From Haladaptatus litoreus (GTDB taxonomy: Archaea > Halobacteriota > Halobacteria > Halobacteriales > Haladaptataceae): DNA of 64,000 nt. The stretch spans positions 1,240,001 through 1,304,000 of the forward strand of contig NZ_FTNO01000001.1 in the NCBI RefSeq assembly GCF_900156425.1, in the 5' to 3' direction. A model generated the notes under the pieces. The model searched no databases and was not told the DNA's origin. It saw nothing but the letters and a program-made list of their open reading frames with translations. Shown one piece after another: positions 20,639 through 39,347 of the stretch. The position numbers were made by a program, and so were the translations under genes. Position 1 is the stretch's first letter. Every line of letters begins with the position of its first letter.

Positions 20639-20640
20639 CG

Positions 20641-20763: not shown

Positions 20764-20793
20764 TGTGAGCGACAGTGCTCTGTAGTAATGTAA

Positions 20794-20803
20794 ATTATAT
20801 ATT
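20794..20803 (-). promoter_or_regulatory. TATA box of the hydratase-dehydrogenase operon
   Basis: Read on the minus strand: AATATATAAT. Spacing predicts a transcription start near 20772. The 20805-21078 stretch between this promoter and the next gene holds no gene I can support; it is AT-rich with a short GC hairpin at the far end. Confidence 0.45.
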
Positions 20804-21078
20804 ATTTATTGCTGATGAAATATTACCCCAAATGCGGTTTTGGACCGTTTCGTCGCCGAAATCGGCCGAATTAACGAAATGTATTGCGGTCCCGACCGTT
20901 TGCAGAAAGCTTTTACCGTAACCGGCAAATCGGTTAATTGTCTCGGGTAGGGGTACACGAGACCAACGATTCTTTCGGAACTGAAACCGGAGCCACAGGT
21001 GTGACGAACTGTCGAAGAAAGCAGGGAGAACTGCTTCTATGATTTAAAACTCAATCTGCTAGATGATATTTGGAGACA

Positions 21079-21097
21079 CGGATAGCGGAGCTATCCG
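21079..21097. terminator. 8-bp hairpin after the HMGS-DUF35 fusion gene
   Basis: CGGATAGC (21079-21086) pairs with GCTATCCG (21090-21097) around GGA, directly after the minus-strand stop at 21103. A second imperfect dyad (TCAAAATTCGACCG/CGGTCGAGTTTTGA, about 21103-21132) covers the gene's last codons. Together they look like a strong transcript end. Confidence 0.45.
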
Positions 21098-21102
21098 CTT
21101 AT

Positions 21103-22545: not shown

Positions 22546-23729
22546 TGTGCATCCACCCCCAGTTCGTTTTCGCGCTCAAGGACGTGGACGACCGCCGCGC
22601 CGCCGCTTCCGCCGACGTTGTGGGTCAGGCCACGAGTTGCGCCTTCGACCTGTCGTTCCCCCGCCTCGCCCGAGAGTTGCTTGAAGGCTTCAACCAACTG
22701 TCCCGCGCCAGTCGCGCCGATTGGGTGCCCCTTCGATTTCAGCCCACCCGAGGTGTTGACCGGGCGTTCGCCGCCGAGTTCGGTTTCGCCGGATTCGACG
22801 AGACTTCCGGCTTCGCCGGGTTCGCAGAAGCCGAGGTCTTCGTAGGCCAGCAGTTCCGCGATTGCGAAGCAGTCGTGAACCTCCGCGAAGTCGATGTCCT
22901 CCGGCGTGATTCCGGCCATCTCGTAGGCCTGCTTTCCCGCCTCCTTCGAGGCCGGAACCGAGGTGTACGACTCGCGCTGGAACAGGCCGACTCGGTCGCT
23001 CGACGCGCCCACACCTGAAATTCGAATCGGGTCGTCGGTGTACTCGTCAACCACGTCCTCGCTGACGACGAGGGCGCAGGCCGCCCCGTCCGTCGTCGGA
23101 CAGCAGTGGTAAAGCGTGAGGGGGTCGGCGACCACAGGTGCGTTTTCCGCGTCCTCAAGCGAACACTCGAACCCGAGGTGAGCGTGCGGATTTTTTGCTC
23201 CGTTCGAGTGGTTTTTCACCGCCACGCTCGAGAGGTGTTCGCTGGTGGTTCCGTATTTTTCCATGTGCGCGTCGGCCATCTGGGCGTAGACGCCCGCGAA
23301 CGTCGTTCCGGAGAGGCGCTCCCACTCGGTTTCGCCCGAGACGCCGAGCCAGTACTTCGTCGCGTCGCTCGACGTGTCGGTCATGATTTCGACCCCGCCC
23401 GCGAGAGCCACGTCTGCCATGCCGCTTTTCACGGCTTGAACGGCGTGTCGTCCCGCGAATCCACTCGCGGCACAGGCGTTTTCGACGCGAGTGCAGGGGA
23501 TGCCGCCGAGTCCGACGTGTTCGGTCACGGCAGGCCCCGAAAGTCCGAGTTGTCGCCCGCCGACACCCAGCGTGCCGACGAAGGCCTCGTCCACGTCATC
23601 CGGGTCGATACCCGCCGGAACGCTGTCTACGGCCGCCTCGAAGGCGGTTCGGAACAGCGACCGATAGCTTTCGTCGGGGAACGACCCGAAATCCGTCTGG
23701 GCCGCGCCGACGAGATAGGCGTCTCGCAT
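22542..23729 (-). CDS. Thiolase family protein (acetyl-CoA acyltransferase, SCP2-like)
   Basis: The 395-residue protein has thiolase motifs: nucleophile Cys in ENACAASGFAGRHAV (about residue 85), 'DFAEVHDCFAIAELLAYE' and the C-terminal GHPIGATGAGQ. The HDCFAIAE plus GHPIGATG pattern is typical of the SCP2/archaeal thiolase branch that partners DUF35 proteins. It cleaves 3-oxoacyl-CoA or condenses acyl-CoAs. Its gene leads the operon and overlaps the HMGS-DUF35 gene by ATGA. The chemistry links it with the hydratase and dehydrogenase genes downstream. Confidence 0.88.
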   Translation of the reverse strand: MRDAYLVGAAQTDFGSFPDESYRSLFRTAFEAAVDSVPAGIDPDDVDEAFVGTLGVGGRQLGLSGPAVTEHVGLGGIPCTRVENACAASGFAGRHAVQAVKSGMADVALAGGVEIMTDTSSDATKYWLGVSGETEWERLSGTTFAGVYAQMADAHMEKYGTTSEHLSSVAVKNHSNGAKNPHAHLGFECSLEDAENAPVVADPLTLYHCCPTTDGAACALVVSEDVVDEYTDDPIRISGVGASSDRVGLFQRESYTSVPASKEAGKQAYEMAGITPEDIDFAEVHDCFAIAELLAYEDLGFCEPGEAGSLVESGETELGGERPVNTSGGLKSKGHPIGATGAGQLVEAFKQLSGEAGERQVEGATRGLTHNVGGSGGAAVVHVLERENELGVDAQ

Positions 23730-23851
23730 GGTTGGTGGTCTTGCGGCAGGGGAAAAATAACTGCCGTCACCACCGCGCCTTTGCCGGGAATCAGATGGAG
23801 GTTGTTTTTGATTTGTTTTTAATTGTGGACTCTTTTCTGGTGTGGCGCTAG

Positions 23852-24006
23852 GTAATCACGACTCCACTGAAACCGCACCCGCCACCGCAGGCCACACCCT
23901 CTCCAACCGACTCTTGCGCTCACTTTGTTCGCGCATTCGTCCCTCGCACGCTGTCAGCACAGGGCTGAGGACTGTACGTCCGAAGCCCTGCGCCAGCGCG
24001 CACCAC
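23852..24006. repeat. Dispersed intergenic repeat, copy A-left
   Basis: This stretch begins AATCACGACTCCACTGAAAC and holds CCCTCGCACGCTGTCAGCAC, GTACGTCC and CCAGCGCGC-CCAC blocks in the same order as the copy at 48515-48718. The copy at 46937-47183 carries them in reverse. It looks noncoding. The repeat family is imperfect, about 150-250 bases, confined to gaps. Confidence 0.5.
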
Positions 24007-24075
24007 TTGGATAACTCGGGATTCCAGGATTGACGCAAACCACATGGCGCGTGCGTTGGCAAGCCCGAGGAAAAA

Positions 24076-24146
24076 GCGGTTTCTATGAAACCGCGAACGC
24101 GAGTAGCGCGGAACGCAGTTCCGCGGACAGTTGAGCGGCGAAGCCG
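24076..24146. ncRNA. Three consecutive triloop hairpins, possible structured RNA
   Basis: Within 71 bases three perfect stems occur: GCGGTTTC/GAAACCGC (24076-24094), CGCGGAAC/GTTCCGCG (24107-24125) and GCGGC/GCCGC (24134-24146), each with a three-base loop. They lie between the two repeat arms in the 730-base gap before the Trm56 gene. This may be a structured RNA or hairpin-rich repeat; transcription is not shown. Confidence 0.3.
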
Positions 24147-24198
24147 CGAAACGACGGTGTAACCGCGAGCAATCGTCCGAGGGCTTGCGAATTATCAC

Positions 24199-24396
24199 GC
24201 GAGGTCTTCGTGAGCGACGGAGGAGCGAGCGAACGGCTCGTCGTAGTTCGTCTCCGACGGTGGATGACTGAAACGACAAAAAAGGAGTGGAAGGAATCGG
24301 TTGGGCGGCGTGTGGGAAACGAGGTCGCGGAGCGACTCCGACTGCGAGCGGTGGAGCCGCGAGCGCGGTTGCGGTCATGTGTTGTCGTGATTTGCG
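24199..24396. repeat. Dispersed intergenic repeat, copy A-right (inverted arm)
   Basis: It carries GCGAGGTCTTCGTGAGCG, GCGAGCGAACGGCTCG, TGGATGACTGA and ends GTCGTGATTTGC, the same order as the copy at 46937-47183. Relative to copy A-left it faces inward, so this gap has two inverted half-elements. No coding sequence of haloarchaeal type is evident; the open frames here run through repeat bases. Confidence 0.5.
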
Positions 24397-24458
24397 AACA
24401 GCAGAAGAAAAGAACTCGAAACAGCGTTTACATGAGCCAATCCTGAAAATCCTCCCTT

Positions 24459-25001
24459 CTACTCCTCGTCAACGGGTTCGACCCGTTTCCCGGTCGCTTT
24501 GGGAATCACGCGCTGGTCTGCGTCCTCCCACTCTCGGTCGAGTTCCCGGCCTTCGAACAACCGGTCTAAAAAGACGGCCAATCCGGCAACCTCGGAGTGG
24601 GGCTGATTCGTCACGCCGACGTTCCAGTCCGCGGCCTCGTACACGTCGAAAGAGACTTTTTCAGCCCCGACGACGACGAGCAGGGGTTCGCCACTCCACG
24701 CTTCCCGAACCTCGCCTTCTACGTCCTGCACGCGCTCGCCGTACATCGTCAGGTGGACGACTGTTCCTTCCCAGTTTCGGATGAGCGCCTTCTGGCTCTC
24801 CGAGCATTCGACTTCGAACGGGCCGCCGAATCGCTCGGTGATGTCCGCAATGGTGTCGCGGGATTTCCCGGCGTTGTCCGGGAGGACGACGCGGTCTGCA
24901 CCCAACGCTCGGGCGGTGAGTCCGACGTGTGTGGTCATTCGCTCGTCGCGTCCAGGTCGGTGGCCGAGACGGACGACGGTAACCTCGGTTTCGGTTTGCA
25001 T
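24459..25001 (-). CDS. tRNA (cytidine(56)-2'-O)-methyltransferase (aTrm56)
   Basis: The 180-residue protein is a SPOUT-class methyltransferase that methylates the ribose of C56 in the tRNA T-loop. 'VTVVRLGHRPGRDERMTTHV' is the family start, with 'ALGADRVVLPDNAGKSRDTI' next; the SAM-binding knot contains 'PLLVVVGAEKVSFDVYEAAD' and 'GVTNQPHSEVAGLAVFLDRL'. These blocks are diagnostic for archaeal Trm56. Complete length. It is divergent from the epimerase gene over 200 bases. Confidence 0.92.
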   Translation of the reverse strand: MQTETEVTVVRLGHRPGRDERMTTHVGLTARALGADRVVLPDNAGKSRDTIADITERFGGPFEVECSESQKALIRNWEGTVVHLTMYGERVQDVEGEVREAWSGEPLLVVVGAEKVSFDVYEAADWNVGVTNQPHSEVAGLAVFLDRLFEGRELDREWEDADQRVIPKATGKRVEPVDEE

Positions 25002-25202
25002 ACTCGCTGATGACAGGCGAAGCGGTTAGGTGGTTTCGAAATTCGATTTCGGCTACTTTCCGGCAGGACGAACCGTGTCCGACGGCTGATTACCCTATCG
25101 GCGGTGACGACGGCGGTTGCTAACGACACACTGACTACGATTATTTTTGCAGACGCTTCGAAGACCGGAACACACTTGCGGATAACCAGCACAGATTGGT
25201 GC

Positions 25203-26135
25203 ATGCAACTCTCCGGTAAGCGAGTGCTCGTAACCGGCGGTGCCGGACTCGTCGGTTCCCAGATGGTCGAAGACCTCGTCGAAGACAACGATGTTGTCGT
25301 CGCGGACGACCTCTCCAACGGGATTCGTTCCTCCATACCAGACGATGCCGAGTTCGTACAGGCGGATTTGACGGACGAATCACAGGTCACAGATGTCATC
25401 ACGAGCGAGTTGGACGCCGTCTTCCACTTCGCCGCCGCGGACAAGTACGTCAATACGGACGACCCGCGCCCGCAGTTCGAGGAGAACGGCGAAATGACGT
25501 ACAACATCCTCGAACGGATGGACGAGGTCGGCGTGACGAATTTCGTCTTTACTTCCTCTTCGACCGTTTACGGCGAGGCCCCGCGCCCGACGCCGGAGGA
25601 TTACGCGCCACTCGAACCCATCAGCATCTACGGGTCGGCAAAGCTCTCCGAGGAAGCACTCCTCTCGACGTTCGCACACTCCTACGATTTCACGGTGTGG
25701 AACTTCCGCTTTGCAAACATCGTCGGCCCACGATTCGGCGCTGGCGTCGTTCCGGATTTCGTGGAGAAGTTGGACGAAAGCCCAGACCTGCTCACGATTC
25801 TCGGCAACGGACTGCAGGAGAAGTCGTACATGCACGTTACGGAGTGTACCGAGGCAATTCGCTACGTCGTGGAAAACGCGGACGACGAGATGAACACCTA
25901 CAACCTCGGCACGAAGACGACCACCTCGGTCAACGCGATTGCTGACATCGTGGCCGACGTAATGGGCCTCGACCCGGAATACGAGTACACAGGCGGCGAC
26001 CGAGGATGGACTGGCGACGTGCCGAAGATGCGCCTCTCCATCGAGAAACTGTCCGCACTCGGCTGGCAACCCGACCAGAGCAGTGACGAGGCGGTCAGAC
26101 GGGCGACAGAGCAGTTGGTCGAAAAGTTGGAATAA
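25203..26135 (+). CDS. NAD-dependent sugar-nucleotide epimerase/dehydratase
   Basis: The 310-residue protein is an extended short-chain dehydrogenase: NAD-binding 'VLVTGGAGLVGSQMVEDL', the active-site 'FTSSSTVYGEAPRPTPEDY' and catalytic YGSAK (Tyr and Lys). The order and length fit UDP-glucose 4-epimerase-like enzymes for surface-sugar and glycosylation pathways; the exact sugar is unknown. ATG 25203 (MQLSGKRVLVT) is chosen because the Rossmann strand begins there. It stands alone. Confidence 0.85.
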   Translation: MQLSGKRVLVTGGAGLVGSQMVEDLVEDNDVVVADDLSNGIRSSIPDDAEFVQADLTDESQVTDVITSELDAVFHFAAADKYVNTDDPRPQFEENGEMTYNILERMDEVGVTNFVFTSSSTVYGEAPRPTPEDYAPLEPISIYGSAKLSEEALLSTFAHSYDFTVWNFRFANIVGPRFGAGVVPDFVEKLDESPDLLTILGNGLQEKSYMHVTECTEAIRYVVENADDEMNTYNLGTKTTTSVNAIADIVADVMGLDPEYEYTGGDRGWTGDVPKMRLSIEKLSALGWQPDQSSDEAVRRATEQLVEKLE

Positions 26136-26158
26136 GCTTTCTGTCGATTTCGAACCAA

Positions 26159-26491
26159 TCAGACCGAAAAGTCGGTTCGCGCTTCTACGTCTTCTTCCAT
26201 GATTTCGAGCGTCGCGACGACGGTGTAGTAGCCCGGCGTCGGGTCGGCCCAGCCACCCGAATAGGTGCGTTCCGAATCTGGGTCGAACGTCTCCGACTGG
26301 AGCGCCTGCGTGAACATTCGCCCGTCGCTTGCGCGCCAAATTTCTTGGTCATCTTCGAGAACGGCGAAATCCGCCTTGAGGCCGCTTCGGAAGGTAACGT
26401 CTACTGGGTCGTCGCCGGGATTTCTAACCGTCAGTTCGAACTCGACGTTGCCGTCGCCGGGAGTCGCCGTCAGTTCGCTTTCGAGCGTCAT
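26159..26491 (-). CDS. BsuPI-domain protein
   Basis: The 110-residue product is a single beta-sandwich: MTLESELTATPGDGNVEFEL, NPGDDPVDVTFRSG and 'GWADPTPGYYTVVATL'. It matches BsuPI, named from an intracellular proteinase inhibitor of Bacillus, but the inhibitor role is not proven for archaeal members. Here it lies 149 bases upstream of, and on the same strand as, the tandem secreted subtilases, which makes a protease-related job plausible. No signal peptide is visible. Confidence 0.75.
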   Translation of the reverse strand: MTLESELTATPGDGNVEFELTVRNPGDDPVDVTFRSGLKADFAVLEDDQEIWRASDGRMFTQALQSETFDPDSERTYSGGWADPTPGYYTVVATLEIMEEDVEARTDFSV

Positions 26492-26639
26492 TGATTCATT
26501 CTTCGATGCGATGATTCGAAAAGCTTCTGGGGAATTTCGGCGAGTGAAGATGGTTCTCCGCTCGAAGTACACGTAAAAATAGAGTCCACGTAAAGATGGA
26601 TGACAGTGGACAGCACGAACGGGAACCGAGCGGTTCGGC

Positions 26640-27767
26640 TTAGTTATCCCACGTTGGCGAATCAACTGCGGCCGCCACGTCGAGGAGGCCAGAACCGGAC
26701 TCGTTGCTCGACAGGCCGATGTTCTCCGCCGTGCTCTTGAGTTGACTGCGAGCGCCCGAGTTCGAGTAGCCCGCGGCCATCAGGACGCCAGCGGCACCGG
26801 CGACGTGTGGGCACGCCATCGAGGTACCCGAAAGCGTGTTGTAGCCACCGCCGGGGTACGTCGAGTTGATGTTCGAACCAGGTGCGGCGATTTCGATTTC
26901 CGGGCCAGTCGAGGAGAACGAGGACAGGCCATCGCTGGAGTTGGTCGAACTAACTGCCATGACCGAGTCGTACACTGCCGGGTAACCGACACAGTACGAA
27001 CACGGGCCGGAGTTACCCGCCGCCGCGACGACGAAGACGCCGCTGTTGTTGGCGTAGTTACACGCGTCTTGGAGCGTGTAGGAACCGGACGAGCCACCGA
27101 GGCTCATGCTGGCCACGTCGAAGCCTTGGTTTGCGGTCCATTCGACACCGGCGGCGATGTCGGAGAACGAACCACTGCCGCTGTCGCTCAGGACTTTGCC
27201 GGCGTGGAGTGTCGCGTCGGGTGCGACACCTTTGATTCCTTGGCCGTCGTTTTCTGCCGCCGCGATACCGGCACAGTGGGTACCGTGACCGTTTCCGTCT
27301 TCCCACGTGCTGTAGCCGAATCCTTTCCCATAGCCGACGTTGTCGAGGTCAGGGTGGTTGCTGTCGATACCTGTGTCGAGAATGGCGATGTGAGCACCTG
27401 AGCCGGTATAGCCGTCTGCGTGTGCCTGTTCCGCGTCAACGCGGTCAACGCCCCACGGAACCGAGTCCGCGAGAGCGTGCATCTGGCCGTTCTCTTCGAC
27501 GTAACGTACGCTTGAGTTCTTCTGTAAAGCCGTCGCCGCTTTTTTCGGAACACGGATCGTCAGAGCATTGAAATCGAACTCGCGAACGACGTCATCTGCT
27601 GCGTTGCGGGCCATCGCTCGCCCGCTTGCGTCTTTGACGCCAACGTTGACTTCCACCAAATCATCCGGCTTCGCGTTTGCAAAACCAGTAACGGAAATCG
27701 CCGCCGCGGCTCCACCAGTTGCTTTGAGCACATTACGTCGTGAAACGCTACCTTTGTTACCTTGCAT
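26640..27767 (-). CDS. Halolysin-like subtilase S8 (copy 1)
   Basis: The 375-residue precursor has a Tat signal (SVSRRNVLKATGGA, residues 7-20) and an I9 propeptide ending about residue 95 (SVRYVEENGQMHALA). A subtilisin domain follows with Asp131 (AILDTGID), His161 (NGHGTHCAG), oxyanion Asn252 (AAAGNSGPC) and Ser316 (GTSMACPHVAG). It is secreted and should digest proteins in brine. A Cys pair (CSYC) recurs in the family copies. There is no long C-terminal domain as in classic halolysins. It is last of four same-strand subtilase genes. Confidence 0.93.
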   Translation of the reverse strand: MQGNKGSVSRRNVLKATGGAAAAISVTGFANAKPDDLVEVNVGVKDASGRAMARNAADDVVREFDFNALTIRVPKKAATALQKNSSVRYVEENGQMHALADSVPWGVDRVDAEQAHADGYTGSGAHIAILDTGIDSNHPDLDNVGYGKGFGYSTWEDGNGHGTHCAGIAAAENDGQGIKGVAPDATLHAGKVLSDSGSGSFSDIAAGVEWTANQGFDVASMSLGGSSGSYTLQDACNYANNSGVFVVAAAGNSGPCSYCVGYPAVYDSVMAVSSTNSSDGLSSFSSTGPEIEIAAPGSNINSTYPGGGYNTLSGTSMACPHVAGAAGVLMAAGYSNSGARSQLKSTAENIGLSSNESGSGLLDVAAAVDSPTWDN

Positions 27768-27884
27768 TGCATGCGAAACAATGTCTGGGCCTGTATTAAG
27801 TTTTTCTCTAATAAATATATTAATTAATATTTTTTTGTTTGAAAATAACAGTAGGGGGCCGAAATCGGCGGTTTGAACCGGCGG

Positions 27885-29012
27885 TTAGTTATCCGCCGAG
27901 TTCAGACCGAGCGCGGCCGCCACATCGACCAGACCGTATCCTTGTTCGTCGCTCGACAGACCAAGATCTTCCGCCGTGTCGTGGAGTCGCTGGCGCGCAT
28001 CCGTGTTCGAGTAGCCAGCAGCGGTAACCTGTGCTGCGGCACCAGCAACGTGCGCAGTCGCCATCGACGTGCCCGACAGCGTCTCGTAGGTGTTGTCGTA
28101 GTAGGTCGAATAGATGTTCGTACCGGGCCCTGCGAGTTCGATTTCCGGCCCTTGGCTGGAGAAACTCGCCCGACCGTCGTTCTCGTTCGTGGCACCGACC
28201 GCGATAACTTCCGGTTCTGCGGCGGGATAGCCCACACAACCCCCACTACACGGCCCGGAACCGCCGCCAGCACCGACGAGCAACGACCCTTGGCTGTATG
28301 CGTATTCGACCGCACTTTCGATGGTCGCGGATTTGCTTCCGCCGAGGCTCAGGTTGATAACGTCGTGTCCCTGATTCGCGGCCCATTCGATACCTGACGC
28401 GATGTCGGAGTACGTCCCGCTTCCGTATCTGTTCAGTGCTTTCACCGCGTGCAGGGTCGCATCGGGCGCGATGCTTCCGACGCCGGAGTAGTTGTTGACC
28501 GCCGCAATCGTCCCCGCGACGTGCGTTCCGTGGCCGTTCTCATCCGACCACGAACTGCCATGATACGTCTTCCCGTTTCCGAGATTCGCTTGTAGGTCGG
28601 GGTGGTCGGCGTCGATTCCCGTATCCACGACCGCCACATCCGCGCCCGCGCCGGTGTAGCCGTTCGCCTGCGCGACATCGGCGTCGATGCGGTCGACGCC
28701 CCACGGGAGGGTTTCGGCGAGAGCGTGCATCTGGCCGTTCTCCTCGACGTAGTTCACGTCCGGCGCGCTTTCGAGCGCGGTAATCGCCTGCTCGGGGACA
28801 CGAATCGTCATCGCGTTTATCGAATCGAACTCACGAATGACGTCGTTCGACGCCTCCACCGCAAATCTCCGTGCAGACGTGCTGTCGAATCCGACGTTCA
28901 CCTCTCGAACGTTCTCCCGTCCCGCGGCGACGCCACTGCCGCCCAGTGTGACAATGGATACACCGGTCGCTTTCAGTACGTTTCGTCGTGTGTGGCTTTC
29001 TTCCACCATCAA
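27885..29012 (-). CDS. Subtilase S8 homologue with Gly in place of the oxyanion Asn (copy 2)
   Basis: This 375-residue precursor has a Tat motif (TRRNVLKATG), I9 propeptide, and the triad Asp (AVVDTGID), His (NGHGTHVAG) and Ser (GTSMATAHVAG). In the oxyanion segment the residues are VGAGGGSGPC, where copies 1, 3 and 4 have AAAGNSGxC. Replacing Asn by Gly in subtilisin is known to cut turnover strongly. Also Ala replaces Pro after the catalytic Ser (MATAH against MATPH). It may be a low-activity or regulatory paralogue. Start ATG 29012 or 29009 (MMVEESH). Confidence 0.9.
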   Translation of the reverse strand: MMVEESHTRRNVLKATGVSIVTLGGSGVAAGRENVREVNVGFDSTSARRFAVEASNDVIREFDSINAMTIRVPEQAITALESAPDVNYVEENGQMHALAETLPWGVDRIDADVAQANGYTGAGADVAVVDTGIDADHPDLQANLGNGKTYHGSSWSDENGHGTHVAGTIAAVNNYSGVGSIAPDATLHAVKALNRYGSGTYSDIASGIEWAANQGHDVINLSLGGSKSATIESAVEYAYSQGSLLVGAGGGSGPCSGGCVGYPAAEPEVIAVGATNENDGRASFSSQGPEIELAGPGTNIYSTYYDNTYETLSGTSMATAHVAGAAAQVTAAGYSNTDARQRLHDTAEDLGLSSDEQGYGLVDVAAALGLNSADN

Positions 29013-29163
29013 TTAATACAGAGACTATCTCCCGGTATAATTCCTTCTATAATATATTAAATTAATTATGGTCAATTTTTGCTGTATTATAAATTAAGTC
29101 GCTAGCATCACGCTACTGACTTCCGAAGTGGTGTAAAATGAATGACTCGAGAGCGACTGTCGA

Positions 29164-30354
29164 TTAGTTGTCGCTGGAATCGTAGCCGAGCGCGGCGGCC
29201 ACGTCGAGGAGGCCTTGTCCCTGCTCGTTCTCTGGCAGGCCGATGTCTTTGGCCGTGCTCAGGATTTGGCTCTCCGCGTCGCGGGCCGAGTAGCCCTGCG
29301 ACATCAGGAGGCCAACGGCACCCGCGACGTGCGGCGTCGCCATCGAGGTTCCCGAGAACGTGTCGTAGCCGCCCGGAACCGTCGAGTAGACGTCCGTACC
29401 AGGTGCGATGATGTCGACTTCTGGCCCTTGGCTGGAGAACGACGACTGACCGTCGCTGTCGTTCGAGGACGCGACTGCGATAGTCTCTGGGTAGGCGGCA
29501 GGGTAACCGACACAGTCGGTACACTGACCGGAGTTACCGGCGGCGGCGATAATCGAGACGCCGTTGTCGTAGGCGTACTGGACTGCATCGCGGAGCGCCG
29601 AGGAACTGGACGAGCCACCGAGGCTCATGCTGGCGACGTCCCAGCCTTGGTCGGCGACGTACTCGACACCGGCGGCGATGTCGGAGAACGAACCGCTACC
29701 AGCACAGTCCAGCACTTTGACCGCGTGAAGCGTTGCGTTCGGTGCGACACCGACGACACCTTCCGTGTTGTCGTCACCTGCCGCGGTACCGGCACAGTGG
29801 GTACCGTGGTCGTTGTCGTCCGACCACGAAACGTTACAGGAGTTGCTGTTTCCAGAGAACATACAGCTTCCCGTGAAGCCGCCACTGCCACAGGAGACGA
29901 AGGCCTCGCCGGAGCCGAGGTGGTCTTGCAGGTCTGGGTGGTCGTCGTCGATTCCCGTGTCGACGATAGCGATGTCGGCACCTGCGCCGAGGTCACCGTT
30001 CGCGTGAGCGACCTCCGCATCGACGCGGTCGATACCCCACGGTTCGGTTTCCGCGAGGGCTTCCATCGTACCGTTCGCTTCGACGTAGCGAATGTTCGGG
30101 TTCTTTTCGAGTGCGGTTGCCGCCTTCTTCGGCACTCGGATGGTCATCGCTTTAATCGAGTTGAACTCCCGGACGACTTCGTCCGCACTACTTCGGGTCA
30201 TCGCCCGACCGCGCTCGCTGTTGAAACCGACGTTGACTTCCACCTTGTCAGTCGGAGCCGCAGACGCGAGGCCGGTTGCACCGGCCGCCGCCAGTGAACC
30301 GCCAGTGAGTTTGAGTACATTCCGCCGCGAAACGCCATTGGCTTTCCTTGGCAT
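29164..30354 (-). CDS. Halolysin-like subtilase S8 (copy 3)
   Basis: A 396-residue precursor with Tat signal (GVSRRNVLKLTGG), I9 propeptide ending near ANGTMEALAE, and a complete catalytic set: IVDTGIDDDHPD, NDHGTHCAGTAAG, AAAGNSGQC and GTSMATPHVAG. Compared with the other copies it has an extra Cys-rich loop of about 20 residues (CGSGGFTGSCMFSG) after the first strand, adding possible disulphides. Secreted endopeptidase. Upstream of copy 2 by 150 bases; AT-rich promoter gaps separate the copies, suggesting separate control. Confidence 0.93.
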   Translation of the reverse strand: MPRKANGVSRRNVLKLTGGSLAAAGATGLASAAPTDKVEVNVGFNSERGRAMTRSSADEVVREFNSIKAMTIRVPKKAATALEKNPNIRYVEANGTMEALAETEPWGIDRVDAEVAHANGDLGAGADIAIVDTGIDDDHPDLQDHLGSGEAFVSCGSGGFTGSCMFSGNSNSCNVSWSDDNDHGTHCAGTAAGDDNTEGVVGVAPNATLHAVKVLDCAGSGSFSDIAAGVEYVADQGWDVASMSLGGSSSSSALRDAVQYAYDNGVSIIAAAGNSGQCTDCVGYPAAYPETIAVASSNDSDGQSSFSSQGPEVDIIAPGTDVYSTVPGGYDTFSGTSMATPHVAGAVGLLMSQGYSARDAESQILSTAKDIGLPENEQGQGLLDVAAALGYDSSDN

Positions 30355-30495
30355 ACGATTTGTGAGAACATACCATGGAATAAAAACCCTTTGATTTTAA
30401 TATAAGACAATATAATTACAACTATTTTTAAATATATTTCTATAGAATTAATTTGTGAAATAATATGAGCAGGTTGTGGCCGCTGACCGATACGC

Positions 30496-31656
30496 TTAGT
30501 TGTCGCTGGAGTCGTAGCCGAGCGCGGCGGCCACGTCGAGAAGGCCTGCACCGGACTCGTTGTCCGCCAGACCGATGTTTTCTGCTGTGTTCGTGAGTGT
30601 ATCACGCGCTTGCGTGTTGGAGGCACCGTTTGCCATCAGCTGGCCTGCGGCACCTGCGACGTGCGGCGTTGCCATCGACGTTCCGGAGAAACTGGCGTAG
30701 TCTCCACCGGGGATGGTCGAGTAGACGTCCGAACCGGGTGCGGCGATTTCGACTTCCGGACCGGTCGAGGAGAAGGACGAGAGACCGTCGCTGGAGTTGG
30801 TCGAACTGACTGCCATCACTTCTGGGTAGGCAGCAGGGTAACCGACACAGTCCGAACATGGACCGGAGTTACCTGCCGCGGCCACGACGAAGACACCGTT
30901 GTTCACGGCGTATTGGCAGGCATCGCGAAGTGCGGCGGAACCGGAGGACGCGCCGAGACTCATGCTGGCGACGTCCCAGCCCTGGTCTGCGACGTATTCG
31001 ACACCAGCGGCGATGTCGGAGAACGAACCGCTGCCGCGCTTGTTGAGAACCTTCACCGCGTGGAGTGTCGCTTCAGTGGAGACACCGATGACACCTTGAC
31101 TGTTGTCGACAGCGTCGGCGATACCGGCACAGTGCGTACCGTGGTCGTTGTCGTCGTCCCAGTCGTTCGGGCAACTTTTTGGGCCGCCTTTACACTTGGT
31201 GAACGCTCGTCCTGCACCGATGTTTGCCTGCAGGTCTGGGTGGTCGGAGTCGATACCTGTGTCGAGAATCGCGATATCTGCGCCCGCACCCGTGTCACCA
31301 TTCGCGTGGGCAACATCCGCATCAACGCGGTCGATGCCCCACGGTTCGGTTTCCGCGAGAGCGTGCATCTGACCGTTTTCTTCGACGTAGCGCACGTTCG
31401 GGTTCTTCCCGAGTGCGGTTGCCGCCTGCTTTGGCACTCGAATCGTCATCGCTTTGATGGAGTTGAACTCCCGAACGACTTCGTTCGCACTGCTTCGGGC
31501 CATTGCCCGTCCGCGTTCGCTCTTGAAACCGACGTTTACTTCGACTTGGTCGGTCGGCTTCGCCGCAGCAAGACCGGTCGTTCCGGCCATTGCCAGTGAA
31601 CCGCCAGTGAGTTTGAGTACATTTCGCCGCGAAACGCCATTGGCTTTCCTTGCCAT
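30496..31656 (-). CDS. Halolysin-like subtilase S8 (copy 4)
   Basis: The 386-residue precursor shares its first 35 residues almost exactly with copy 3 (ANGVSRRNVLKLTGGSLA). The triad lies in ILDTGIDSDHPD, NDHGTHCAGIADA and GTSMATPHVAGAAG, with Asn in AAAGNSGPC. A short Cys-containing loop (CKGGPKSCPND) sits where copy 3 has its larger loop. Closest relative within the set is copy 3, implying recent duplication. Secreted serine endopeptidase with own AT-rich promoter region. Confidence 0.93.
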   Translation of the reverse strand: MARKANGVSRRNVLKLTGGSLAMAGTTGLAAAKPTDQVEVNVGFKSERGRAMARSSANEVVREFNSIKAMTIRVPKQAATALGKNPNVRYVEENGQMHALAETEPWGIDRVDADVAHANGDTGAGADIAILDTGIDSDHPDLQANIGAGRAFTKCKGGPKSCPNDWDDDNDHGTHCAGIADAVDNSQGVIGVSTEATLHAVKVLNKRGSGSFSDIAAGVEYVADQGWDVASMSLGASSGSAALRDACQYAVNNGVFVVAAAGNSGPCSDCVGYPAAYPEVMAVSSTNSSDGLSSFSSTGPEVEIAAPGSDVYSTIPGGDYASFSGTSMATPHVAGAAGQLMANGASNTQARDTLTNTAENIGLADNESGAGLLDVAAALGYDSSDN

Positions 31657-31773
31657 GCAATTTGGTACAACTTAGCATATGCTTAAATAATTTTCTACAG
31701 AAGGTTATAAAAATATTAAACAAAGATGCCACTAAGAAAGCGACAAGCAATCGAAGTTGGCTTTTAACGCGGT

Positions 31774-32001
31774 TTAACCGCCTGTTTGTCCGTTTTCTTC
31801 GACGTATCTGATTTCGGGGTGGTTTTCCAGTTCAGTCCACGCCGACCGCGGAATTCGGACCGTCACGACATCGAGAGAACTGAACTCACGAACAACTTCC
31901 ACGGAGGTCTCTACCGCCGATTTTCGACCTTCATCGCCGTCGAATCCGACGTTCACCGCTACGGTGTCGTCCCCGGAATCCCCTGTGTCACTCTCCGGCA
32001 C
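31774..32001 (-). CDS. Free-standing I9 inhibitor/propeptide-like protein
   Basis: The 75-residue product begins at a GTG (31999-32001); a stop lies just upstream. It is a lone I9 domain: AVNVGFDGDEGRKSAVETSV, 'VVREFSSLDVVTVRIPRSAW' and RYVEENGQTGG, matching the propeptides of the four subtilases next door. There is no Tat signal and no protease remnant downstream. I9 domains can act alone as tight subtilase inhibitors or chaperones in fungi; here it may protect the cell or be a leftover of a fifth copy. Confidence 0.6.
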   Translation of the reverse strand: MPESDTGDSGDDTVAVNVGFDGDEGRKSAVETSVEVVREFSSLDVVTVRIPRSAWTELENHPEIRYVEENGQTGG

Positions 32002-32163
32002 GCTATGTTGCTACAACACATGGGTTATTAAAGCATTGTCCTTAATTTCAAATATTCCAATACTACTCAATTTTAACCACGATTATTAACAAATCAACCG
32101 TCCAACAAAATTCCACCTCCGGCAAACGACACGGCTTTTATCGTTTAGAACGGACGATCAATC

Positions 32164-32922
32164 GTGCAAATCGTCGGGTACGACACCGGTGCATCCGGAG
32201 ATGGCGCGCCTGCCTTGTTAGTGAGTGACGAGGATTCACTATCGCGCGAAGAACTATCAGTTGGCTCCGAACTCGAATACACCCTCGGTCGACGACACTG
32301 CGCCGGGACGTTCGACGGGTCGGTACACGTCCCGTGTACCCGACCCGGCGCACCATACTGCGATGCTCACACCTCGACGTGGATTTGCGCCCGCTGTACC
32401 GGGACCTGTCTCAAAGACGAGATGGACTGCTACGAACCCCACGCCATCTATCTCGCGGCGTTCGCCCCCACGACGTTCAAAGTCGGCGTTACGCGCGAAT
32501 GGCGACTCGAAACCCGACTCAAAGAACAGGGCGCAGACCGCGCCGTCCACCTTCAGACTGTGAAAGACGGACGAATCGCCCGCCAGCTCGAAGCCGAAAT
32601 CGCAGAGGAGTTCACCGACCGCGTGCGGGTTCCGACAAAGATTCGTGACCTCAACCGAACCGTCGATGAATCCACGTGGAACGACGCGCTTTCCGCGTTC
32701 GACCCAATCGCCAGTTTCGACTTCGATTACGGCTTCGAACTCGACTCTGCTCCGGTTCACGAAACGCTCGCCAGCGGCACCGTCGTCGGGACACAGGGCC
32801 GCGTTCTCGTCCTCGAACGCGGCGGAACTGCCTACGCCACCGACATGCGCGATTTGGTCGGCTACGAACTCGAAGCGGGTACCACGGAACGAAGCCTGCA
32901 AGCCAGCCTCGGCACTTTTTAG
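32164..32922 (+). CDS. DUF2797 protein
   Basis: The 252-residue product begins at a GTG (MQIVGYDTGASGDGAPALLV). It contains a Cys/His-rich N-terminal half with RRHCAGTF, CTRPGAPYCDAH and CARCTGTC-type metal-binding pairs, and a helical second half with 'AFAPTTFKVGVTREWRLETR', a GIY-YIG-like block. DUF2797 proteins are widespread in haloarchaea and of unknown role. The stop lies 24 bases before the helicase start on the same strand, so the two are likely co-transcribed. Confidence 0.82.
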   Translation: MQIVGYDTGASGDGAPALLVSDEDSLSREELSVGSELEYTLGRRHCAGTFDGSVHVPCTRPGAPYCDAHTSTWICARCTGTCLKDEMDCYEPHAIYLAAFAPTTFKVGVTREWRLETRLKEQGADRAVHLQTVKDGRIARQLEAEIAEEFTDRVRVPTKIRDLNRTVDESTWNDALSAFDPIASFDFDYGFELDSAPVHETLASGTVVGTQGRVLVLERGGTAYATDMRDLVGYELEAGTTERSLQASLGTF

Positions 32923-32945
32923 GCCACAGCATCCCCAGTTTCGAT

Positions 32946-34304
32946 GTGGCCGATGTGACCATCTCGTTCGAGGGCGGGACGCTCCGGGTCGAAATCGACG
33001 ACGACCTGCCACTTACCGCATCCGACTTGCCCTTTATCGAATCCGACCCCCGTTCGAAAACACTGCGTGCACCCGCGTTTCGATACGCCGCACTCTGCGA
33101 CTATTTCGATTCACAGAACATCGCGACAGAAGATTCCGTCCTCGACCTGCCCGAACTTCCCACGATTCTTTCTGCCTACGACCTCCGGGAGTATCAGGCC
33201 GACGCCCTTGATTCGTGGGACGACGCGAACCGCCGCGGCGTGCTCGAACTCCCCACCGGAAGCGGAAAAACGGTTATCGGCGTCAAGGCAATCGAAAAGT
33301 GTGGGACGCCCACGCTGGTCGTCGTTCCGACCATCGACCTGCTCGAACAGTGGCGCGGAATCCTCGAAACCGAGTTCGACGTGCCAATCGGCCAACTCGG
33401 CGGCGGCGAACAGCGCGTAGAAGCCCTCACGGTTTCGACCTACGATTCTGCCTACCTCCGGGCGGACGACATCGGCGACCGATTCGGCCTCGTCATTTTC
33501 GACGAAGTACACCACCTCGGCGGCGAGGGCTACCGCGAAATCGCGCGTCTTCTCGCGGCACCGGCACGAATGGGACTGACGGCGACGTTCGAGCGCCCCG
33601 ACGGCGCACACGAAGTCGTCACCGACCTCGTCGGAGAAAAGGTGTTCGACATCGACGTGGACGATTTGGCGGGTGAACACCTCGCCCCCTACGACGTAAA
33701 GCGCCTGACGGTCGAACTCACGACCGAAGAACGCGAGCGATACGAACGCAAACAGCAGGTTTTCACCCGGTATCTCGCGCAGTCGAGTATCGACATGCGG
33801 AGCGGGAGCGACTATTTGGAACTCGTCAAACGCTCCGGAAACGACCCGAAAGCCCGCGAAGCACTGCTTGCGAACCAGCGCGCGCGAGACATCATGATGA
33901 ACAGCGAGGGCAAAGTGACCGCGCTCGCGGATATTTTGCGTCAGCACCGTGACGACCGCGTTATCGTGTTCACCGCCCACAACGACCTCGTTTATCGACT
34001 TTCGGAGCGATTTCTCATTCCCGCGATCACGCACCAGACCGCCGCAGCGGAACGCCGCGAGATACTCGACCGATTCCGGCGAGGGGTGTACTCCCGCGTC
34101 ATCACGTCCAACGTGCTGGACGAGGGGGTTGACGTTCCCGATGCCAACGTTGCAGTCGTCCTCTCGGGAAGCGGAAGCGAGCGCGAGTTCACGCAACGAC
34201 TCGGGCGAATCCTCCGCCCGAAAGAAGACGGCGGGCGCGCGATTCTCTACGAAGTCGTGACGAAAGAAACCGCGGAAGTTCGAGTGGCGAACCGGCGTCG
34301 CTGA
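32946..34304 (+). CDS. XPB/Rad25-like DEAD/DEAH helicase
   Basis: The 452-residue protein starts at GTG (VADVTISFEGGTLRVEID) and has a substrate-damage-recognition-like N-terminal part, then Walker A LPTGSGKTVIG, Walker B DEVHH, motif III GLTATFERPDG, and C-terminal blocks VTSNVLDEGVDVP and QRLGRILRPK. XPB unwinds DNA in repair and transcription; archaeal XPB partners the nuclease Bax1, encoded here as the DUF790 gene 1.2 kb downstream. The helicase and DUF790 genes are on the same strand with one small gene between and one opposite. Confidence 0.88.
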   Translation: MADVTISFEGGTLRVEIDDDLPLTASDLPFIESDPRSKTLRAPAFRYAALCDYFDSQNIATEDSVLDLPELPTILSAYDLREYQADALDSWDDANRRGVLELPTGSGKTVIGVKAIEKCGTPTLVVVPTIDLLEQWRGILETEFDVPIGQLGGGEQRVEALTVSTYDSAYLRADDIGDRFGLVIFDEVHHLGGEGYREIARLLAAPARMGLTATFERPDGAHEVVTDLVGEKVFDIDVDDLAGEHLAPYDVKRLTVELTTEERERYERKQQVFTRYLAQSSIDMRSGSDYLELVKRSGNDPKAREALLANQRARDIMMNSEGKVTALADILRQHRDDRVIVFTAHNDLVYRLSERFLIPAITHQTAAAERREILDRFRRGVYSRVITSNVLDEGVDVPDANVAVVLSGSGSEREFTQRLGRILRPKEDGGRAILYEVVTKETAEVRVANRRR

Positions 34305-34382
34305 CGCCGATTTCCGGTTTGCTTGCGTTCCTGCTTTTTTCCGTTTCACTACTTTCGATGGTTTCGGTACTCTGGATGGTTT

Positions 34383-34414
34383 GTATAGTTTCTATACTAT
34401 TTTGTGAGTACTCA
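34383..34414. repeat. Small dyads in the gap after the helicase gene
   Basis: GTATAG (34383-34388) and CTATAC (34392-34397) flank TTT; eight bases later TGAGTACTCA (34405-34414) is a perfect 10-base palindrome. The 210-base gap before the next gene holds no other gene. These may be a promoter-linked operator for the 34514 gene. Confidence 0.3.
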
Positions 34415-34513
34415 ATACCCGCCTGCTCGTTGCTTCAAATGGGGGCGACCCCTTCCCCTCTGACATGGCTTTCGGGGGAACCCCCTTCCGATATGACGTA
34501 ATATGAAGGAACA

Positions 34514-35038
34514 ATGGCCCACGCATCCACCGACCCCACGACCGAGAAGTACGAACTGCTGACCGCGAAACAGAAAGAGCGAGATGGCAACACCGAGACG
34601 GCGATCGTCGAACACGTGTACGTGAGCAACGAACAGGTCGTCCTCACGCTCGCCTTCGATTGGACGACTGATTCGAAACGGTTGGTGTACGAGTTGGACG
34701 ACGACCGGGACGTGCGCAAACTCGAATCGCTGACGGACGACCACGGATTCGAGTTCGCGCAGGTCGGCCACCTCGAAGGGCTATCGCTGACGGTGCGGTA
34801 CACCGGTCGCGGTTGGGTTCCGATTTCCACCCTCGCGTACACCGAAGGGGAAGGTTCGGTGACCGAGACGTTCCGCACTGAACTCGAACTGCTCGCGCGA
34901 GAACTCGCCCGTTCACCCGGCTATCTGCGCCGATTCGTCGCGTGGGCGCGGTCGCTGTCGATGAAACAGACCGTCATCGCGGTCATCATCGTCAAGAAAA
35001 TAATCGTCATCGCACTCGTCGCGGGAATGGTGCTGTAG
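34514..35038 (+). CDS. Tail-anchored protein of unknown function
   Basis: I do not recognise this 174-residue protein. The first 150 residues are soluble with sheet-like and acidic stretches ('EHVYVSNEQVVLTLAFDWTT', 'DGHLEGLSLTVRYTG'-like block HLEGLSLTVRYTGRGW) and a helix (ELELLARELARSPGYL). The last 22 (KQTVIAVIIVKKIIVIALVA) form one hydrophobic helix with a short tail, so it looks anchored from the cytoplasm. It lies between the XPB-like helicase and Bax1-like nuclease genes, which may be chance. Confidence 0.5.
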   Translation: MAHASTDPTTEKYELLTAKQKERDGNTETAIVEHVYVSNEQVVLTLAFDWTTDSKRLVYELDDDRDVRKLESLTDDHGFEFAQVGHLEGLSLTVRYTGRGWVPISTLAYTEGEGSVTETFRTELELLARELARSPGYLRRFVAWARSLSMKQTVIAVIIVKKIIVIALVAGMVL

Positions 35039-35425
35039 TTATTTCAAGTCGAGGTCGATGCTCGTCCGCGACGCCTCCTCGTACTTCGAATACTCGACTT
35101 CGAACGGGATTCGGACGCCTTTCGTTTGACCGCCCGGAACGGTCACTTCCGGCGTTTTCTCGTGTACCGTCTCGCCGATGGTGGCGGCCACGTTGAGCTT
35201 TGCTGACGACTGGCTATCGCCGTGGTTCTCGATGTTGACAACGACGACGAGATTCCCGCTCTCGCCTTCGACGATGCTGTCGATGCCGATGGTTTCTAAG
35301 TCTCCCGAGCGCGCTCTGTCGCCGTCGTCTGTCTCACTCCCGCCACCGAGAATAGAAGCACAACCGCCGGTCGAAGCGAGGGCGGCAACCAAACCGAACT
35401 GCTGGAGGGCGTTTCGTCTGCGCAT
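35039..35425 (-). CDS. Lipoprotein-like secreted protein with CARDB/FxLD-type domain
   Basis: The 128-residue product starts MRRRNALQQFGLVAALASTG, a Tat-like signal, followed by the lipobox GGCASIL, so it should be exported and lipid-anchored. The rest is one beta-sandwich: LVVVVNIENHGDSQSSAKLN and PGGQTKGVRIPFEVEYSKYE, a CARDB-like fold for cell-surface adhesion or binding. The stop is antiparallel to the tail-anchored gene's stop. ATG 35425 gives the shortest signal. Confidence 0.65.
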   Translation of the reverse strand: MRRRNALQQFGLVAALASTGGCASILGGGSETDDGDRARSGDLETIGIDSIVEGESGNLVVVVNIENHGDSQSSAKLNVAATIGETVHEKTPEVTVPGGQTKGVRIPFEVEYSKYEEASRTSIDLDLK

Positions 35426-35503
35426 ACTCCACACCCATTGGGTCACGCGGAATGAATCTTCTCATTCCGACGGCTTTTGTACGTTCCTTTCCTACGTCGA
35501 ATC

Positions 35504-37006
35504 GTGCTTACGAAAGACCTGCTCCGGGTGTCTCGCGCCGGGGGAGGCTACCATCCGCAGTTTGCCGGACGAGAACACCGCCCGCTCGCCGCGCGCGTCC
35601 TCGGAACGTATCAGGGTCACGTCGGCGAACCGCGTTCTGCACTCCAGTCAGCCCTCGCCGACCTCGAACCCGACGCACCGCATTTTAAACTCGTGCGAGG
35701 CCTCGCCAAACTGCTCGAACGCGAATCGACGTTCGAACCACGGGCACCGGTTCATCCCGAACACGCGCGAAACGTCGCCTTCGAGGAAGCCGAGGCGGTC
35801 GGAGTCGCGTGCGACTCCGACCGCAAAACCGCACTCAAGCACGCCGCAGACCGCCTCGACGCAACCCCGGACGACATCGAACGTTCGCTGTACGCCGATT
35901 TGGAGGAACGCCAGATCTTGGCCTCTTTCGACTCGCGCTGGAACCCCGACGAACTGGTCGCCCAGTACAATCTCTCGCTCGCCCAAACCGCGCTGTTCGA
36001 CGCGACTGAACTCCGCGTTCTGAGTTCCGATCCGAAGGCGCTTGTCTCCGCCGTCAAGCGACTTCGACTGATGTACGAAATTCGCAAAACAGACCGCGGG
36101 CGGGAAGTCGTCGTCACCGGGCCGGACGCCCTCTTTCGCGCCACACGACGGTACGGAACGCGATTTGCGCGCTTGCTCCGAACCGTCGTCAAAGCGGACG
36201 AATGGCGTCTCACTGCAACCATCGACGATTCCGGAACCGAGCGCGACTTCACCCTCTCCGATTCCGACCCGGTTCGGCCGCCGGGTGCGGAGCCGGTCAG
36301 CGACGTTTCCTTCGACAGCGACGTCGAACGCGAGTTCGCCGCGCGATTCGCCGCGCTCGGGTTGGACTGGAACCTCGTGCGTGAACCGGAACCGCTGGAG
36401 GCGGGTGCGAAAGTGATGATTCCCGATTTCGCGTTCGACTACCGACACGCCGATTTCCGCGTCTTCTTCGAAATCATGGGCTTCTGGACGCCCGAGTACG
36501 TCGAAAAGAAACTGTCGCAACTCGACAGCGTCGAAGACGAACTGCTCGTGGCGGTGGACGAATCGCTCGGCGTCGGCGAGGAAATCACGGCCCGCGACCA
36601 CCGCGCGATACCGTATTCGGCCCGGATTCGCGTCAAGGACGTTCGCGCCGCGCTCAGACGCTACGAAGACGAATTGGTGGCTGAAAGCGCACACTCCCTT
36701 CCGGACGAAATCGTTCCGGACGAGGACGCGATTTCACTCGCCGACCTCGCCGACAATCACGGCGTCAGCGAGGACGCCATCGAGGACAAGGCGTTTCCAG
36801 AACACGACCGAGTCGGTCGGACGCTGATTCGTCCCGCGATTCTCGCCGAACTGCGGGACGAAATCGAGGACGGAATGGCGTACTCCGAGGTGGAAAAACT
36901 CCTCGCCAAATCCGGCATCGAGGATGCCAGTGCCATCCTTTCCGAACTCGGCTACGCAGTCGAGTGGGAGGGACTGAGCGGCGGAACTGTTCGGCGAAGC
37001 GGTTAG
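35504..37006 (+). CDS. DUF790 (Bax1-like) nuclease
   Basis: The 500-residue protein starts at GTG (VLTKDLLRVSRAGGGYHPQF), the usual DUF790 beginning. The C-terminal third contains the nuclease core 'IPDFAFDYRHADFRVFFEIM' then GFWTPEYVEKKLSQL, a PD-(D/E)XK-like core. In archaea DUF790 proteins (Bax1) bind XPB and cut DNA in a repair role. Here the XPB-like helicase is 1.2 kb upstream on the same strand. The last 130 residues include a helical HTH-like segment. Confidence 0.87.
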   Translation: MLTKDLLRVSRAGGGYHPQFAGREHRPLAARVLGTYQGHVGEPRSALQSALADLEPDAPHFKLVRGLAKLLERESTFEPRAPVHPEHARNVAFEEAEAVGVACDSDRKTALKHAADRLDATPDDIERSLYADLEERQILASFDSRWNPDELVAQYNLSLAQTALFDATELRVLSSDPKALVSAVKRLRLMYEIRKTDRGREVVVTGPDALFRATRRYGTRFARLLRTVVKADEWRLTATIDDSGTERDFTLSDSDPVRPPGAEPVSDVSFDSDVEREFAARFAALGLDWNLVREPEPLEAGAKVMIPDFAFDYRHADFRVFFEIMGFWTPEYVEKKLSQLDSVEDELLVAVDESLGVGEEITARDHRAIPYSARIRVKDVRAALRRYEDELVAESAHSLPDEIVPDEDAISLADLADNHGVSEDAIEDKAFPEHDRVGRTLIRPAILAELRDEIEDGMAYSEVEKLLAKSGIEDASAILSELGYAVEWEGLSGGTVRRSG

Positions 37007-37067
37007 GGACGACCGATTTTGGTTGTCATAGGCAGAACAATTTCTGTGGGTTGTTTGAGTTGCTCCA

Positions 37068-37583
37068 CTACAGGTCGCGCCGTCGCCCCTTCGGAACGAG
37101 CGACTGCAGTTCCCCGTGGAGATACAAGCCGACGCCGAGCGGTTCCCGCCCGCCCGCGATTTCGTGGCTGACGATGAGGTAGCCCCAGTCGCCGCCCCAG
37201 TCGAGTTCGTGGTCTTTCCCGCGGACGAACCGACTCGCTTGCTCGTCGTCCAGTCCGATGACGTTCTTGCTGGCGAGGCCGCCGAATCGCTGGGCCGCGT
37301 TCGTCGTCGGTTTCCAGTGTCGCTGTCGAGTTCGCAGGAACGTCATGCCGAGAGCTTCGATGTGAACCGGCGAATCGAGGTCACCGCGGAGAATCCAGAT
37401 TTTCCCTTTCCCTTTTTCCCAGAAGGAGTAGCCGTCGAACGTCTCGGGTGCGACTCCAAATCGCTCTTTCCACCAGTCGATGATTTCCTCTCGGGTCGCA
37501 CGCCCGGCAACTTCGCGTTCCTCGGCGGTTGCGGGAAGGCGGTCGAATCGTTGCCCGTCGTTCGTTTCCATCTCGTCGCTCAT
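37068..37583 (-). CDS. DUF7122-like protein, RNA-methyltransferase partner
   Basis: The 171-residue product (MSDEMETNDGQRFDRLPATA) has a central block 'KGKGKIWILRGDLDSPVHIE' and the end 'GVGLYLHGELQSLVPKGRRR', similar to the PUA-like C-terminal domain of bacterial RsmF-type rRNA methyltransferases. It starts 4 bases inside the end of the m5C methyltransferase gene (ATGA at 37580-37583), so the two are co-translated and probably work together on RNA. Function of the family is inferred. Confidence 0.72.
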   Translation of the reverse strand: MSDEMETNDGQRFDRLPATAEEREVAGRATREEIIDWWKERFGVAPETFDGYSFWEKGKGKIWILRGDLDSPVHIEALGMTFLRTRQRHWKPTTNAAQRFGGLASKNVIGLDDEQASRFVRGKDHELDWGGDWGYLIVSHEIAGGREPLGVGLYLHGELQSLVPKGRRRDL

Positions 37584-38485: not shown

Positions 38486-38593
38486 TACTCGTCACTGCGT
38501 GCGAGAGGTGTTTGTGGGTTTCGGAGCAACGTGACGGGTTCGATAACTGAACACTACCTCCTTTTTAAGTTGAACCCGTCCGAACTGTGATGT

Positions 38594-39340: not shown

Positions 39341-39347
39341 GCACGAC

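Follow-up and report, generated by a model that had tools for sequence, protein, structure and literature searches.

A tandem array of halolysin-type subtilases in Haladaptatus litoreus between two signal-less candidate inhibitors, with a natural Gly155/Ala225 variant among its members

We analyzed a 64,000-nucleotide stretch of the Haladaptatus litoreus genome (the window; contig NZ_FTNO01000001.1, positions 1,240,001 to 1,304,000), in which four subtilase (S8) genes lie in tandem between a gene for a stand-alone subtilisin propeptide (I9-like) and a gene for BsuPI, a homologue of the intracellular proteinase inhibitor (IPI) of Bacillus subtilis. On balance, we lean toward reading this locus as an array of halolysin-type subtilases that are exported by twin-arginine translocation (Tat), with a predicted cytoplasmic guard on either side, the stand-alone propeptide and BsuPI. 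This reading is based on gene order, conservation, co-occurrence and residue changes, together with a lack of signal peptides that was read from the sequence. One of the four subtilases, S8c, belongs to a class with natural replacements at the subtilisin positions Asn155 and Pro225.

Organization of the subtilase array

The six genes are located on the minus strand in the transcription order stand-alone propeptide, S8a, S8b, S8c, S8d, and BsuPI. The proteins encoded by S8a (window positions 30496-31656; 386 aa), S8b (29164-30354; 396 aa), S8c (27885-29009, with the ATG at 29009; 374 aa) and S8d (26640-27767; 375 aa) all have an S8 catalytic domain above the Pfam cutoff and are 53 to 74% identical to each other. 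The greatest variation is in a single loop between Asp32 and His64, which is longest in S8b. Inspection by eye revealed an RR-N-V-L-K leader in all four proteins; the Pfam TAT_signal model matched two of them, below its cutoff. The propeptides, which by eye end in HAL (EAL in S8b) right ahead of the mature start, matched the Fervidolysin_NPro-like model above the cutoff in three of the four proteins and Inhibitor_I9 below the cutoff in two. Unlike the classical halolysins, none of the four has a C-terminal extension: the proteins stop at the end of the catalytic domain. The Asp-His-Asn-Ser set is complete in S8a, and the oxyanion residue Asn155 is present in S8a, S8b and S8d, while S8c has Gly. 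The spacers preceding each S8 gene are AT-rich and, by eye, contain TATA-like stretches near -30. In the whole genome, 15 S8 matches and one BsuPI were detected.

The initial annotation had described four same-strand S8 genes with Tat signals and I9 propeptides, sharing most blocks and differing in loops, with a free I9 domain upstream and BsuPI downstream. The gene order was confirmed by coordinates and Pfam matches, and so was the pattern of similarity. Leaders and propeptides are recognizable by eye in all four proteins, and two propeptides match Inhibitor_I9 at subthreshold scores. The interval proposed for the cluster, 26640-32001, includes the S8 genes and the I9 gene but not BsuPI, and the altered active-site residues of S8c went unmentioned.

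At this locus, the nine Haladaptatus genomes have 2 to 5 S8 copies together with the stand-alone propeptide gene, and the 18 Halorussus genomes have 0 to 10 S8 copies and no such gene. Close relatives that carry a single copy and lack the I9 gene had been named as evidence against an expanded locus; they are absent from Haladaptatus, and that picture is partly found in Halorussus. One Halorussus genome has ten consecutive full-length S8 genes on one strand, in an array that ends at BsuPI (L056:2426-15636), and three Halorussus arrays contain broken or fragmentary S8 copies on the side next to BsuPI (L057:4750-5894, L068:5158-6305, and L066:6497-6625). The second S8 of the array in the Haladaptatus genome G003 (L048:8611-10026) consists of two overlapping match pieces, as if its end were frameshifted. 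In another case, the last S8 of an array (L051:4943-6091, minus strand) has lost the oxyanion Gly-Asn pair and has GSSM at the active-site Ser. A halolysin-like S8 with 48% identity was also found on a 3.2-kb contig labeled Nannocystineae bacterium (L119:915-2039), perhaps due to a binning error.

BsuPI adjoins and tracks halolysin-like subtilases

The BsuPI gene (26159-26491, minus strand; 110 aa) matched PF12690 with 91.1 bits (cutoff 22.9; E value 4.9e-26). By eye, its product has no signal peptide, and the frame upstream of its start is also without a signal-like stretch. Exactly one BsuPI copy was present in each of the 28 genomes of the family. In 24 of them, BsuPI immediately follows the last S8 gene or S8 fragment and shares its strand (23 genomes by script, with gaps of 49 to 433 bp, and G019 across its contig start). 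The adjacency is missing in G009, G014, G017 and G018; in the last two, both Halorussus, the DUF2797 gene directly adjoins BsuPI, with no S8 in between.

In the order sample, BsuPI was matched in 106 genomes from outside the family, and 96 of the loci, one per genome, were examined. At 18 of these loci, representing seven family codes, an S8 gene is directly upstream of BsuPI on the same strand, and the idea that the adjacency is confined to this family was therefore rejected. At four loci from one genus of another family (L186, L198, L203, and L226), a second S8, with 47 to 49% identity and an unusual AAAGNGR oxyanion stretch, precedes the BsuPI-linked S8. Published sources are cited here by PubMed Central (PMC) number. 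According to a 2013 IPI paper, the complete genomes available at that time had no IPI gene in the vicinity of a subtilisin gene (PMC3901451). For the genomes now available, the loci described here contradict this statement.

Co-occurrence is a stronger test than adjacency. Among 215 non-family genomes, 91 had both BsuPI and a halolysin-like S8 (a match at an E value of 1e-40 or better), 15 had BsuPI only, 24 had S8 only, and 85 had neither. The odds ratio was 21 without stratification, 26 when stratified by genus (hand count), and 7.0 (P = 1.3e-8) when stratified by family; the family-stratified test used the 203 of the 215 genomes with a known family (12 were dropped), and kinship below family or genus is uncorrected in these values. 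Furthermore, BsuPI was present in 43 of the 45 genomes with an S8 match at 1e-100 or better. As a control, a gas-vesicle protein was linked to both BsuPI and S8 without stratification (odds ratios, 5.3 and 4.2) and to neither after it. A second control, rhodopsin, had no link to BsuPI and a weak negative link to S8 after stratification (P = 0.03). We regard BsuPI as old and widespread in the order.

A conserved stand-alone propeptide gene in Haladaptatus

The stand-alone propeptide gene (31774-32001, minus strand) encodes 75 aa from a GTG start, without a signal peptide, and its product is 47 to 54% identical to the propeptides of the four S8 proteins. It was found in all nine Haladaptatus genomes, always with the DUF2797 gene on one side and the first S8 on the other, and in none of the 19 other family genomes, Halorussus included. 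The other matches in this search of 28 genomes, in frames shorter than 210 aa, were two broken S8 copies and one S8 cut at a contig end. In the order sample (243 genomes), the stand-alone propeptide was found, among the stronger matches that were listed, only in the nine Haladaptatus; three more listed matches, in frames of 150 to 206 aa, lie near contig ends or within a broken S8 gene. We regard the gene as a Haladaptatus addition.

The GTG start is kept in 9/9 genomes. A TATA-like box, GCTTTAATAA (32025-32034, minus strand), lies about 28 nt before it in the window, and TTTAATA is present at about the TATA-box position in 8/9 genomes, which is consistent with a leaderless transcript. In the window, an in-frame TAG is located 12 nt upstream of the start, and in seven of the nine genomes an in-frame stop within 22 codons upstream excludes a leader or signal peptide. 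G001 and G008 have longer upstream open frames, yet the GTG and the propeptide domain align. The ratio of nonsynonymous to synonymous substitution rates (dN/dS) was 0.08 to 0.35 in 31 of 36 pairs (dS was saturated in the other five), and the gene is under purifying selection. In a tree based on only 63 columns, the nine sequences formed one clade with a long stem (Shimodaira-Hasegawa-like approximate likelihood ratio test [SH-aLRT] support, 99), apart from the propeptides of 89 full-length array frames of the family (at least 340 aa; shorter fragments were excluded from trees and residue counts). We rejected the possibility that a single species had recently acquired the gene by truncation, since it is present in all nine genomes as a single clade. 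Synteny and selection support an expanded protease locus, as initially proposed, with conserved inhibitor-like neighbors.

An AlphaFold2 model of the stand-alone propeptide had a predicted local distance difference test (pLDDT) value of 81. Its best Foldseek matches in the PDB were subtilisin propeptides (1spb chain P; probability, 1.00; E value, 0.005), with none reaching 0.001, and the sequence-profile match to 1spb was weak (E value, 0.8). PF05922 was not reported in the Pfam search. Glu68 and Asn70 are invariant in the nine proteins and align with Glu69 and Asp71 of the BPN' propeptide, which are helix-capping residues (PMC6993865). When numbered by alignment to the propeptide junction of the neighboring S8 proteins, the tail ends at P2 in six of the nine proteins, and in the other three it continues through Leu or Phe at P1 and two residues farther (Asp-Ala or Asp-Asp). 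As judged from this alignment, the tail does not simply repeat the product-like one of ordinary propeptides. An influence of propeptide tails on inhibition has been described (PMC10580911). No phage family matched the stand-alone propeptide or BsuPI in a family search. Among the top-ranked papers of the open-licence literature, we found no report of an archaeal stand-alone I9 domain, which is weak evidence of absence, as subscription papers are mostly outside that coverage.

S8c represents a Gly155/Ala225 class

An alignment of its catalytic domain with subtilisin Carlsberg shows that S8c retains the Asp, His and Ser residues and has Gly at the position of Asn155 (Gly250, codon 28260-28262) and Ala at that of Pro225 (Ala319, codon 28053-28055). 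Both changes were detected in 16 of the 89 full-length array frames and neither in 70; two frames carry only Ala225, and in one the oxyanion segment is gone. The last S8 of G019, which was read separately because it lies beyond the contig start and outside the 89, is the 17th member. The class is represented in 7 of the 9 Haladaptatus genomes and, among the 15 Halorussus genomes having S8 at this locus, in 10. Asp-His-Ser and Ala225 are conserved in 17/17 members, and the nucleophile is Ser in all 17, never Cys221.

With both columns masked, the 16 class members fell within one group of 19 rows (SH-aLRT, 97). The free tree requires two changes; a single origin was not rejected (approximately unbiased test, P = 0.30; three long rows were left out). 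Members of the class also have Asn for Ser immediately ahead of the SLGG block (16/16) and Val for a conserved Cys (15/16). These residues match subtilisin Carlsberg, so the class looks more like an ancient lineage of its own than like a copy in decay. The dN/dS values of six Haladaptatus members (no Halorussus, and without the G005 member, whose frame is overlong) were 0.09 to 0.21, similar to those of the Asn155 paralogues S8b and S8d.

That the class is general among haloarchaea was not supported: no member outside Haladaptatus and Halorussus was present in 111 S8 frames (75/76 loci), in a scan of the best 80 of 417 candidates that used two patterns, one being SGTS[MFY]A[TA]AH. Likewise, none was found among 24 S8 frames close to BsuPI, with a single broken gene contributing two of these frames. 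The top-ranked papers of the open-licence literature included none on a natural Gly155/Ala225 subtilase or on this locus; with subscription papers mostly uncovered, this too is weak evidence of absence. The structure model of S8c had a mean pLDDT of 37, and no active-site geometry was drawn from it.

Flanking genes

The locus is anchored upstream by the DUF2797 gene (32164-32922, plus strand; PF10977, E value 4e-23) and downstream by the Trm56 tRNA methyltransferase gene (24459-25001, minus strand; PF01994, E value 2.1e-48). An NAD-dependent epimerase gene (25104-26135, plus strand; PF01370, E value 2.5e-47) is the downstream neighbor in Haladaptatus and some relatives. A search of positions 20000-40000 in the window gave no match to RNA families. 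Farther away, an exported-looking M23 peptidase with an RR leader and an SH3 domain is encoded at 39767-40519 (minus strand).

Discussion

The array proteins share a propeptide, the S8 domain and a leader that by eye looks Tat-type with the halolysins SptA, R4, Nep and HlyHap (layout from PMC6085418). A title in a reference list presents HlyHap as a halolysin without C-terminal extension. Its source is Haladaptatus sp. DYF46 (PMC12893001), whereas a review instead names Halococcus; membership of HlyHap in the array could not be shown.

Halolysins use Tat, which exports folded proteins (PMC6085418), so that the zymogens of the array can fold and self-cleave inside the cell. Indeed, Natrinema SptA self-activates inside cells, and with a Tat-signal mutant, active enzyme accumulates in the Haloferax host, followed by death (PMC6085418, citing Du 2015). 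We propose that the array zymogens would fold and self-cleave in the cytoplasm before export, and that BsuPI and the stand-alone propeptide would bind prematurely matured or unexported subtilase there and block it, the latter docking as a normal propeptide does. Since, by eye, both neighbors are without signal peptides and the S8 proteins have Tat-type leaders, any self-regulation would act before export. The initial suggestion of a self-regulated extracellular locus is partly supported, with the regulation placed inside the cell.

Both candidate guards have counterparts in known systems. The BsuPI of the window belongs to the same family (PF12690) as B. subtilis IPI, the inhibitor of the intracellular subtilisin Isp1, and differs from it in being encoded directly behind exported-type subtilases. 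B. subtilis IPI inhibits subtilisins, with a Ki on the order of 1e-9 M for Isp1 (PMC3901451). Small stand-alone genes of the propeptide fold are also known from the I9 inhibitors in MEROPS (Pleurotus, yeast, and Arabidopsis; Plasmodium SUB1-ProM; Toxoplasma MIC5). SUB1-ProM resembles the Haladaptatus gene in its location beside subtilase genes and in a Glu/Asn pair at the capping positions (PMC6993865). In contrast to these eukaryotic examples (PMC6993865), the Haladaptatus gene is archaeal, clearly homologous to the propeptides of its neighbors, and signal-less, with an altered tail.

Several points weigh against such guards. Whole or in part, the DUF2797-BsuPI-epimerase-Trm56 frame recurs across the order, in most cases without S8; the adjacency may therefore be an inherited position and is weakened as evidence. 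Moreover, 15 of the 106 non-family BsuPI genomes have no halolysin-like S8, and 24 of the 115 S8 genomes have no BsuPI. The 2013 paper calls into question the inhibitor role and the intracellular location of the B. subtilis protein, a longer form of which, it adds, might be secreted (PMC3901451). The stand-alone propeptide scored 19.7 bits with PF22148, below the 21-bit cutoff, and Halorussus manages up to 10 S8 genes at the locus without it. Finally, the missing P1 residue in six of the nine proteins could weaken inhibition; PDB titles indicate that the Tk-subtilisin propeptide minus two or five C-terminal residues still crystallized with its enzyme.

We consider it unlikely that BsuPI is beside S8 through inherited position alone and has another function, with S8 genes having come and gone in a DUF2797-BsuPI slot. 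The S8-free slot at most examined non-family loci, and DUF2797 next to BsuPI in Halorussus G017 and G018, fit this explanation, but BsuPI tracks halolysin-like S8 also when families are taken separately, a link that the two controls lack, and nearly all genomes with the strongest S8 matches have it. For the stand-alone propeptide, a role as a trans-acting folding chaperone instead of an inhibitor, templating the folding of the array enzymes in the cytoplasm before Tat export, seems to us rather improbable. It would agree with the fold shared with subtilisin propeptides, with the lack of room for a signal peptide in seven of nine genomes, and with a tail that is shorter than the product-like one or departs from it. 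However, each of the four S8 proteins in the window still has a propeptide, as do the S8c relatives that were aligned (without the overlong G005 member), and an extra chaperone looks redundant; in subtilisin propeptides, chaperone and inhibitor roles are usually coupled, which also counts against a chaperone-only function. Hardly tenable is the view of the gene as the decaying remnant of an S8 gene that was lost. Its likeness to the neighboring propeptides and its position at the array edge would suit a relic, yet it is open and alignable in all nine species, with dN/dS mostly at 0.1 to 0.3, a conserved start and TATA-like box, and a single clade on a long stem.

We return to the S8c member of the array. 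S8c combines, in nature, two changes known separately: Ala225 is shared with subtiligase (S221C/P225A), of which P225A is one half (PMC7921005), although the S8c nucleophile is still Ser; and the oxyanion Asn is replaced as in PC2, which is active with Asp at this position (PMC4182778), whereas S8c has Gly. Replacement of Asn155 by Leu in subtilisin decreases kcat 200- to 300-fold with little effect on Km (PMC5986005). In PC1/3, the N309K exchange still allows prodomain removal, more slowly, and abolishes trans activity (PMC4182778). By analogy, we infer that S8c would process itself, be exported, and hydrolyze poorly. It is most likely a constrained, catalytically slowed subtilase that is folded, exported, and weakly hydrolytic or substrate binding. 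The two mutants also speak for plain pseudoproteases, acting as decoys or propeptide sinks without chemistry, a possibility that we take seriously but find doubtful: Asp, His and Ser are retained in every member and would be unneeded by a pure decoy, the dN/dS of the Haladaptatus members resembles that of Asn155 paralogues, and PC2 works with an altered oxyanion residue. CspC-type pseudoproteases have lost the catalytic triad, which fits the name of that family; such a loss is not seen in the Gly155/Ala225 class. Very speculative, in our judgment, is the further idea that these subtilases form a natural, slowed, exported class that holds the acyl-enzyme long enough to hand the peptide over to an amine, in transpeptidation or ligation on the cell surface, while two signal-less inhibitors, including a freed propeptide, check their active sisters before export.

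Given export by Tat, how cells survive while making folded subtilases is a real question, and the locus offers two concrete guard candidates. Because BsuPI/IPI genes adjoin subtilase genes and track them across haloarchaea, the inhibitor status of this family is directly testable, which bears on the point raised in 2013. The Gly155/Ala225 class, in turn, amounts to a natural experiment on two positions altered by protein engineers in studies of the oxyanion hole and in the construction of peptide ligases.

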